A DNA stretch of 64,000 nt from NCBI RefSeq assembly GCF_000302595.1, contig NZ_JH947126.1:213213-277212 (forward strand), read 5' to 3'. Below the pieces are notes generated by a model. That model was given only the letters and a program-made list of their open reading frames with translations, was not told the DNA's origin and made no database searches. Made by a program: the position numbers and the translations under genes. Each line of letters starts with the position of its first letter. Positions within the stretch are counted from its first letter, which is position 1. This DNA comes from Pedobacter arcticus A12. GTDB taxonomy: Bacteria > Bacteroidota > Bacteroidia > Sphingobacteriales > Sphingobacteriaceae. Below, piece after piece: positions 48,574 to 50,152 of the stretch.

Positions 48574-48610
48574 CCCCTTTGTTATTTTTAACAGAGGGGT
48601 TTGTTTTTTA
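48574..48610 (+). terminator. Intrinsic terminator after hom
   Basis: CCCCTTTGTTA and TAACAGAGGGG pair (one T-G/A mismatch) around a TTTT loop region and are followed by TTTGTTTTTT. It separates the methionine genes from the satD operon. Confidence 0.88.
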
Positions 48611-48660: not shown

Positions 48661-48710
48661 AATAGGCTTATTTCAGCCATTTTTGATGAATTGGCTGAAA
48701 TAAGCCTATT
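48661..48710. repeat. Perfect 19-bp inverted repeat upstream of satD
   Basis: AATAGGCTTATTTCAGCCA (48661-48679) is the exact reverse complement of the sequence at 48692-48710, with a 12-nt spacer TTTTTGATGAAT. It could form a strong hairpin in RNA or two inverted protein sites in DNA. Each arm contains the motif GGCTTATTTCAGCCA (or its complement), shared with the direct repeats that follow. Confidence 0.8.
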
Positions 48711-48760
48711 CTCTTTAAAGTAATTTCGCTAACATCTTTAAAAAATAAGTCTAAAACAAT

Positions 48761-48810
48761 AATTGGTCAAAATAAGCCAATTTCAATAAATTGGTCAAAA
48801 TAAGCCAATT
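48761..48810. repeat. Two 22-bp direct repeats (candidate operators) upstream of satD
   Basis: Two identical 22-bp copies (48761-48782 and 48789-48810), 28 bp apart start to start, share the core TTGGTCAAAATAAGCCAA. Each copy is itself an interrupted palindrome (AATTGG..CCAATT). The second ends 35 bp before the satD ATG. Their core (TGG, three variable bases, AAATAAGCC) is also in both arms of the 48661-48710 inverted repeat, giving four motif copies. They likely bind a regulator, possibly the C-terminal helix-turn-helix of SatD. Confidence 0.75.
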
Positions 48811-48845
48811 ATTAAAAAAAATGTATCTTTATAAAAAAGAATAAT

Positions 48846-49451
48846 ATGGTAGCGGTAATAACAGGAGATATCATCGACTCCAAAAAGGTTAAACCAGAAA
48901 TTTGGCAACAAAGGTTAAAAGAATATTTTTCCACAACTACAAAAGATGCTACAAAATGGGAAATATACCGAGGAGATAGTTTCCAAATAGAAGTACCTGT
49001 GGAAAAAGCATTAGAAGTAGCCTTGTGTATAAAGTCGTTGATCAAGTCTAGCAGCTTAATTGATGTACGAATGTCGATTGGAATTGGAGATAAAAGTTTT
49101 AAAGGAAAAAAAGTGACCGAATCCTCTGGTACAGCACATATCAATTCGGGCGAAAGTTTTGAGAAATTAAAAAACCATACGCTGATCATCAAAAGTCCAT
49201 TCCTAGAATTTGACGAATACTTCAACTCTATATTAAAATTGGTAAGTTTTATCAGCAATAGCTGGAAACCAGCCACTTCAGAAACCATATTTTTCTCGTT
49301 AGTCAACAGAAGTTTGATGCAGAAAGAGATTGCAAAAAAGCTACAGAAAGATAATACCACTATAAATAAGGCTCTTAAAAGAGGTGCTTATGATGAGATG
49401 ATTGAAATTGTAGATTTATTTGCAAAAAAGATTACAAAATGTTTGAATTAA
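48846..49451 (+). CDS. SatD family protein with C-terminal helix-turn-helix
   Basis: This 201-residue protein matches SatD-like proteins: AVITGDIIDSKKVKPEIWQQRLKEYF at the start, then WEIYRGDSFQIEVPVEKALEVALCIKSLIK, VRMSIGIGDKSFKG and SSGTAHINSGESFEKLK, an arrangement resembling a nucleotidyl-cyclase-like fold. The last 50 residues form a helix-turn-helix (LMQKEIAKKLQKDNTTINKALKRGAYDEM). SatD was named from a streptococcal acid-tolerance operon; its biochemical role is unknown. It overlaps the DUF3307 gene by 13 bp, so the two are cotranslated. An array of repeated motifs precedes it, suggesting autoregulation. Confidence 0.88.
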   Translation: MVAVITGDIIDSKKVKPEIWQQRLKEYFSTTTKDATKWEIYRGDSFQIEVPVEKALEVALCIKSLIKSSSLIDVRMSIGIGDKSFKGKKVTESSGTAHINSGESFEKLKNHTLIIKSPFLEFDEYFNSILKLVSFISNSWKPATSETIFFSLVNRSLMQKEIAKKLQKDNTTINKALKRGAYDEMIEIVDLFAKKITKCLN

Positions 49452-50152
49452 TATTGAAAATCACACTAGCGCATTTATTGGGAGATTTTGTATTTCAAAC
49501 CAATAAAATGGTGCAAGATATCCAAGATAAAAAATTCAGATCACTGTATCTTTATGCCCACATTGTAATCCATTTACTTTTAATTTTAATTGCAACAGGT
49601 TTCGATAAAAAGTACATCATAGCTTCAATAATATTGGCGTTATCGCATTTTGCAATAGATGTTATTACAAAAGTTTTTCTCAAAAACAGCATCAGTACCA
49701 TCAGTAATTTTTTATTAGATCAGTTTTTACACGTTATTGCAATTGCTGTTTTTATTAAGCATTTTTATAACTACAATATCGATTTAAACCAGATATTTAG
49801 CAACCAAAACTACCTGCTCGTTATAGCTTTGATAAGCTTAACCTATGTATCGTCCATATTAATTAAAAAAATAATTGAGATTTTTAACTATCCATTACCC
49901 AACGGCGGATTAAAAAACGCAGGTAAATACATAGGCATGTTAGAGCGCTTATTTGTATTCGGTTTTATTGTGACTTCCTTTTGGGAAGGAATTGGATTTT
50001 TATTGGCTGCAAAGTCAATATTTAGATTTGGAGATCTAAAAGAAAACAAAGACATTAAGTTAACGGAGTACATATTAATTGGCACCTTATTAAGTTTTGG
50101 AGTTGCCATATTAATCGGCTTGCTTTACTTAAAGATAAAAGTAATCTTATAA
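49439..50152 (+). CDS. DUF3307 integral membrane protein
   Basis: This 237-residue protein has about seven membrane segments. The N terminus LILKITLAHLLGDFVFQTNKMVQDIQDKKFRSLYLYAHIVIH and the later ASIILALSHFAIDVITKVF are the DUF3307 signature with conserved His and Asp. The middle FLLDQFLHVIAIAVFI and the closing GGLKNAGKYIGMLERLFVFGFIVTSFWEGIGFLLAAKSIFRF are also typical. The conserved His/Asp within membrane helices suggest metal binding or catalysis in the membrane, but the role is unknown. It overlaps satD by 13 bp; SatD-DUF3307 pairs recur across bacteria, implying joint function. Confidence 0.88.
   Translation: MFELILKITLAHLLGDFVFQTNKMVQDIQDKKFRSLYLYAHIVIHLLLILIATGFDKKYIIASIILALSHFAIDVITKVFLKNSISTISNFLLDQFLHVIAIAVFIKHFYNYNIDLNQIFSNQNYLLVIALISLTYVSSILIKKIIEIFNYPLPNGGLKNAGKYIGMLERLFVFGFIVTSFWEGIGFLLAAKSIFRFGDLKENKDIKLTEYILIGTLLSFGVAILIGLLYLKIKVIL

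Follow-up and report, generated by a model that had tools for sequence, protein, structure and literature searches.

We describe a putative regulatory array of palindromes in front of satD–DUF3307, a two-gene operon, in a window of 64,000 nucleotides from Pedobacter arcticus A12 (contig NZ_JH947126.1, positions 213,213 to 277,212). Positions given below are those of this window, and all features lie on its forward strand. SatD probably binds its own array, in which paired palindromes are 28 bp apart, and would thereby control the satD–DUF3307 operon, most probably by repression, with its palm domain as the candidate switch. An earlier note on this DNA had proposed a self-regulated unit of a SatD regulator and a membrane effector behind a four-copy operator-like motif; this interpretation is supported in its core and is extended here.

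The array in the window is made up of four imperfect 22-bp palindromes that form two pairs, with a spacing of exactly 28 bp within each pair. The distal pair comprises unit 1 (AATAGGCTTATTTCAGCCATTT, 48661–48682) and unit 2 (AATTGGCTGAAATAAGCCTATT, 48689–48710), and the proximal pair comprises unit 3 (AATTGGTCAAAATAAGCCAATT, 48761–48782) and unit 4 (48789–48810), with unit centers located at −174, −146, −74, and −46 relative to the satD ATG. Each unit matches its own reverse complement at 14–16 of 22 positions. Units 3 and 4 are identical 22-mers, as had been claimed at the correct coordinates. The perfect 19-bp inverted repeat reported alongside them (48661–48679/48692–48710) is likewise present, but it is not a separate object: its arms are parts of units 1 and 2, which start 28 bp apart at 48661 and 48689, so that the region resolves into two 28-bp pairs. 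The array exceeds chance expectation, since the longest direct and inverted repeats of the 297-bp intergenic region (27% G+C) are 22 and 19 bp, versus maxima of 16 and 14 bp in 1,000 dinucleotide shuffles. Across the whole 4.23-Mb genome, TTGGYYNAAATAAGCC has three exact matches and one one-mismatch match at the window array, and four other one-mismatch matches are scattered; at up to two mismatches, its frequency is near background (80 matches versus 59 for the reversed pattern). Exact matches to the fuller palindrome ATTGGYY-N6-RRCCAAT are confined to the window array, one-mismatch matches occur elsewhere, and at up to two mismatches the count is again near background (254 versus 224 per strand).

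To place the window in a wider context, we gathered loci by DUF3307 (76 from named genomes) and by SatD, together with extra stretches; removal of identical proteins left 201 non-redundant satD loci, nearly all from Bacteroidota. DUF3307 adjoins satD in 200 of them, and in 128 of the 129 satD loci outside the DUF3307-collected set. Conversely, with the window protein as query, SatD adjoins 74 of the 76 DUF3307-collected loci, and one of the two unmatched loci, from Amphibacillus (L114), has a divergent SatD-like open reading frame (ORF). A 28-bp-periodic palindrome array precedes satD in 176/201 loci versus 0/201 composition shuffles. This periodicity also emerges from a motif-free test of the satD upstream regions (n = 200), which asks for a 20-bp self-match of at least 15 at a given shift: shift 28 was positive in 164 regions, shift 29 in 20, and shifts 25–27, 30, and 31 in 0–2, while control windows elsewhere in the same loci were positive at shift 28 in 11 of 2,759 cases. 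Furthermore, among 27 SatD proteins recovered in a later search, 26 have the array and all 27 are paired with DUF3307. The earlier expectation that orthologous satD genes carry the motif is therefore borne out in its geometry, with letters that vary by lineage.

In most loci, the array follows a common architecture of TATNNN, 8 bp, the reverse complement, and another 8 bp, so that a half-site recurs every 14 bp with its orientation alternating. The number of units in a contiguous array ranges from 2 to 7 and is most commonly three (109/172). The half-site types include TATCGG, TATCTG, TATCGT, TATCGC, TATCAT, TATCAC, TATTAG, TATTAC, TATATG, and TATAAC, and the window type is ATTGG[CT].

SatD is linked to the array by the covariation of its predicted recognition helix (residues 170–179, encoded at 49353–49382 and assigned by DSSP on the structure model) with the half-site bases. 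The covarying residues are 170, 172, and 175 within the helix and 169 directly before it. In a coupling set of 172 loci (effective number 87), scored by normalised mutual information with bases 4–6, K175 (0.54), T172 (0.41), and D169 (0.40) lead the 201 SatD columns; the next column reaches 0.34, and the best of 239 DUF3307 columns reaches 0.325. The same three residues lead when later loci are pooled in (n = 198). When the comparison is stratified by identity over 85 independent pairs, 27 of which differ in bases 4–6, K175 (z 4.6), T171 (3.4), and T172 (3.4) rank highest, followed by A55 (3.1).

More specifically, residue 172 pairs with base 5, residue 175 with base 6, and residue 170 with bases 1–2. 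In the 198 pooled loci, serine or threonine at 172 goes with G at base 5 (97/102), glutamine with A (27/28), and arginine with T (4/4); alanine is less clear (21 A, 6 G, 2 C). Glutamate or glutamine at 175 goes with G at base 6 (96/103) and arginine with C (15/16), and other residues at these two positions show less clear base preferences. Q170 is accompanied by TA at bases 1–2 in 185/185 cases, and any other residue at 170 by A at base 1 in 13/13, mostly of the window type. In genome G193, the SatD helix is changed and the units read TATCTG, with no TATCGG-type site found within one mismatch.

Prediction across clades was restricted to SatDs below 50% identity and to cases with an exact residue match. 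Under these conditions, residues 169, 172, and 175 predict bases 4–6 at 0.88, against a majority baseline of 0.25 (effective n 36 of about 87), and at 0.67 below 40% identity, where the effective n is 6.6. Residues 172 and 175 alone reach 0.62, compared to 0.12 for random column pairs outside the helix-turn-helix (HTH) and 0.35 for the best of 200 such pairs. On 27 held-out proteins, whose nearest identity to those used was 41–88% and thus in some cases close, base 5 was predicted in 23/26 (majority letter 17/26) and base 6 in 17/26 (majority letter 13/26), but the exact triplet was correct in only 1 of the 7 predictable loci. The helix–base coupling is thus real when taken base by base, and the recognition code is not yet reliable as a predictor for new lineages. 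Because the recognition helix tracks the half-site letters, SatD is very probably the reader of the array and likely controls both satD and DUF3307.

The satD gene (48846–49451) encodes an N-terminal palm domain (residues ~1–120) and a C-terminal HTH, as judged from its ORF, Pfam, and the predicted structure. The model is of high confidence (pLDDT 96) and shows the palm fold of class III nucleotidyl cyclases, Cas10, and GGDEF domains; the high-ranking Foldseek and VIA matches include Cas10/Cmr2, class III cyclases, GTP cyclohydrolase III, and GGDEF domains. The nucleotidyl-cyclase-like core and the HTH proposed from the sequence are both supported, the former by the predicted fold and the latter by the model and Pfam. 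Two aspartates stand out as predicted metal ligands: Asp8 (codon 48867–48869) as the first and Asp44, in an RGDSFQ hairpin (codon 48975–48977), as the second. Both are invariant in 55/55 aligned SatD proteins, and in the model they fall on the first strand and on the hairpin, as expected of such ligands. In 20/20 SatD proteins from Bacteroidota, Proteobacteria, Fusobacteriota, Bacillota, and haloarchaea, D8, S12, G43, and D44 are invariant. The window SatD scores 28.4 bits over the whole protein against PF16264, for which the gathering score is 29; the family is matched by 46/55 aligned SatD proteins at E ≤ 0.5, and an identical database entry (P0001) is annotated as PF16264.12. A PF16264 search of the window's own genome gave nothing above the family cut-off.

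The second gene (49439–50152) encodes the DUF3307 membrane protein and starts inside the end of satD, which confirms the 13-bp overlap noted earlier; frames overlap in 60 of the 72 pairs measured. The protein matches DUF3307 (PF11750) over residues 6–125 with 81.1 bits, above the gathering score of 23. Its model (pLDDT 93) is all-helical and polar, with ten helices of at least four residues, which does not bear out the previous count of seven, and no solved fold matches it. The family carries invariant His, Asp, Gln, Lys, Arg, and Glu residues, including H12, D16, Q20, H41, H45, H70, D74, K78, D94, Q95, and H98, and its C-terminal half is highly conserved. The phage DUF3307 proteins found, such as BFVD A0A1L7N193 of Ralstonia phage RP12, have ~115–128 residues, half the bacterial length and equal to that of the bacterial N-terminal part.

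Upstream, a terminator-like hairpin followed by a T-run (48574–48609), read directly from the sequence, separates the operon from the preceding homoserine dehydrogenase gene. The Bacteroidota −7 promoter element has the consensus TAnnTTTG; the window has a putative −7 element of the looser TAnnTTTA form only (TATCTTTA, 48824–48831). Since this box follows unit 4, the unit occupies what we take to be the expected −33 element site of the satD promoter. A −7-like box in any of three allowed forms lies 3′ of the last unit in 13/13 operons scanned, at 14–24 bp from the center of that unit in 12 and at 44 bp in L283. Six of these operons have a two-block array (the window, L039 of F. enshiense, L276, L278, L279, and L282), with the distal pairs 64–108 bp upstream of the proximal pair. 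The other seven (L040, L280, L283, L285, L286, L287, and L292) have one block, with additional out-of-register matches in L285 and L287.

Taken together, these features point to a regulatory circuit. SatD likely binds the 22-bp palindromes 28 bp apart before satD, with dimers presumably occupying consecutive half-sites that are 14 bp apart and alternately oriented, and would control the operon, most probably by repressing it. The palm domain, whose two invariant aspartates are predicted to sit where class III cyclases, GGDEF domains, and Cas10 palms hold their metals, may bind a nucleotide–metal ligand or make a product. This event could release SatD from the array or report on the membrane partner, and would in turn set the level of DUF3307, the candidate membrane effector.

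Several other explanations were weighed against this repressor model. A toxin-antitoxin-like or defence module, in which SatD restrains a membrane-damaging DUF3307 and autoregulates, is a possibility we regard as doubtful. The gene order, the overlapping frames, and the array would all suit it, as would the location of the pair by replication and mobilisation genes on the 3.77-kb plasmid pEC34A and on Klebsiella plasmids of the same size, its place next to a Sphingomonas insulae Pycsar locus that PADLOC confirmed, its occurrence on a P. fragi plasmid near genes of the Xre/MbcA and RelE/ParE types, and its patchy distribution (47/395 class genomes). However, PADLOC gave no convincing match in the pairs scanned (none for DUF3307 and weak ones for SatD, mostly in the HTH region), the conserved neighborhoods within related genera resemble those of housekeeping genes, and a single Pycsar neighbor is an anecdote. 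It is rather unlikely that SatD reads the array but activates the operon, or that the array serves as a DNA sensor or assembly platform, for example for a tandem filament. The 2–7 units at a rigid 28-bp period exceed the needs of a simple repressor, and the alternating half-sites every 14 bp, together with the distal pairs of the six window-type operons, point the same way; against this, in 12 of 13 operons the gene-proximal unit precedes the promoter-like box by 14–24 bp, where a repressor usually sits.

The remaining two explanations concern the identity of the reader and of the array itself. Binding by a different regulator, such as a global factor, with the SatD covariation reflecting shared ancestry, appears very unlikely. 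SatD, DUF3307, and the array do share a history, and the best non-helix columns reach a normalised mutual information of about 0.3, but the top columns recur at every third residue along the recognition helix and outscore every other column of SatD and DUF3307. Recognition-helix columns also lead the independent-pair test, and few matching sites occur elsewhere in the genomes scanned. More improbable still is a role of the palindromes as RNA hairpins or attenuators within a leader: although the units are inverted repeats, they match their own reverse complements only partially, the putative −7 box follows them in all 13 operons scanned, including that of the window, and neither the rigid period nor the covariation with the HTH would be expected of such structures.

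The satD–DUF3307 pair would belong, as a variant, among the known autoregulated two-gene modules. It resembles toxin-antitoxin operons in having the regulator first, an overlapping second gene, and palindromic operators at the promoter, but the regulator is cyclase-like and the partner is a multi-helix membrane protein. The predicted fold of SatD residues ~1–135 is that of class III cyclases and Cas10 palms (Ma1120, Rv1625c, Cmr2), from which SatD differs by its low identity (mostly 10–22%) and by the added HTH and operator array. A cyclase-type domain fused to a C-terminal HTH is also found in the PucR family, whose member MabR is described in a section title as having a GGDEF fold without catalytic and inhibitory motifs (PMC11617747); SatD, by contrast, keeps two invariant aspartates. 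The PucR families PF17853 and PF13556 are absent from the five Pfam matches of the window SatD at E ≤ 1, and it was rejected as a PucR regulator.

Among defence systems, the closest comparison is Panoptes (mCpol/OptS with 2TM-beta/OptE), likewise an operon of two genes, one for a Cas10-like palm protein and the other for a membrane protein, in this case an effector with two transmembrane segments (PMC12657230). The mCpol structure 9mnr is among the weaker Foldseek matches of SatD, at rank 39. In contrast, the excerpt of that report describes neither a DNA-binding domain nor an operator array (PMC12657230), and the partner here is DUF3307, which is larger, falls outside the 2TM-beta effectors of Panoptes, and has no PADLOC match (none at E ≤ 1 for the window protein). 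By analogy, satD–DUF3307 might be a stand-alone nucleotide-signaling guard of bacteria and archaea, similar to Panoptes but wired to its own transcription and with a recognition code that drifts between lineages, in which SatD holds the array and a nucleotide signal restrains the membrane effector; we consider this broader picture improbable.

The name SatD presumably originates from the sat operon of S. mutans. It stands for 'secretion and acid tolerance' (PMC10326533); the window protein shares this family name, and the loci studied here lend no support to an acid-tolerance role. In the open-licence library searched, SatD and DUF3307, by name or Pfam accession, appear in two papers, one with a Fusobacterium annotation list (PMC10326533) and one with a phage gene table, and the array is unmentioned in both passages. 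The pair, its rigid array, and the per-residue recognition pattern turn these anonymous, family-named genes into a testable system with a candidate regulator, its predicted binding site, and a defined set of residues to swap. A palm domain beside a membrane partner, the tiny plasmids, and the one Pycsar neighbor make nucleotide signaling and defence worth testing.

The pair is present in bacteria and archaea, and its neighborhoods are conserved within groups of related genera. SatD was found in 106/201 genomes of the window's own family, 47/395 genomes of the class sample, and 113/249 genomes of a group drawn around F. enshiense, which extends beyond a single conventional genus, as it includes a Myroides genome (G802). 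A search of 400 genomes of the order with a window-type protein query (E ≤ 1e-40) returned the window's own copy at 71% identity to the query and 81 other matches at no more than 47%. In the tree, the window SatD is placed with Flavobacterium, Myroides, Empedobacter, and Pelobium proteins. Within the genus of genome G000 (18 genomes), five other members have a different SatD type (38–40% identity) with other half-sites, and SatD was not found in 12 of the 18.

Beyond these samples, we examined 17 loci: 13 from other taxa on records of a plasmid collection, three on viral contigs, and one from Amphibacillus. Some of these are not independent, since the two members of the Pseudoalteromonas, Salinivibrio, and haloarchaeal pairs are similar to one another. 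The best of 27 shifts tried was 28 or 29 bp in 12 of these loci. It was 28 bp in Vibrio lentus, in two loci each of Pseudoalteromonas and Salinivibrio, and in one viral contig, and 29 bp in E. coli pEC34A, Enterobacter, two genera of haloarchaea, and the other two viral contigs. Vibrio, Pseudoalteromonas, and the haloarchaea, as well as two of the viral contigs, score above the best of 60 shuffles, while Salinivibrio, pEC34A, Enterobacter, and one viral contig (at most 15 of 20) do not. In the same test, the genes of Sphingomonas, Fusobacterium, P. fragi, and Amphibacillus showed no array upstream, and the signal for a 4.4-kb Klebsiella plasmid was ambiguous. That Bacteroidota, some Gammaproteobacteria, and haloarchaea have this geometry in common suggests that the assembly is old and constrained.

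Individual loci add further detail. On Haloplanus and Halorientalis plasmids (L264, L268), two TTCGCC-N6-GGCGAA-like palindromes lie 29 bp apart at SatD–DUF3307 pairs. On the E. coli plasmid pEC34A (L236, 3,770 bp), the only further annotated genes are Rop, MobA, and a small hypothetical one; the palindromes upstream of the pair, ~29 bp apart, are statistically marginal. The Sphingomonas insulae plasmid (L265, NZ_CP048421.1, 2201–6648) carries the pair directly beside the Pycsar locus, where PADLOC identified PycC (E 3e-182), a PycTM-type effector, and an E2-like protein. In Fusobacterium, the SatD-like gene likewise precedes a DUF3307 gene (L266). Genome G492 has two divergent satD copies (L222 and L273), both with upstream GTTGATT/AATCAAC-like repeats (28-bp shift scores of 16 and 14 of 20), so that paralogues are not necessarily insulated from one another. 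Finally, matches away from satD were found in only 3 of 20 genomes of one genus searched genome-wide. At L247 (G187:C18:124595–124642), a second two-unit TATCGG array lies distant from satD, between ORFs whose translations read as response-regulator-like and SRAP-like, and may represent an additional target of SatD in this genome.
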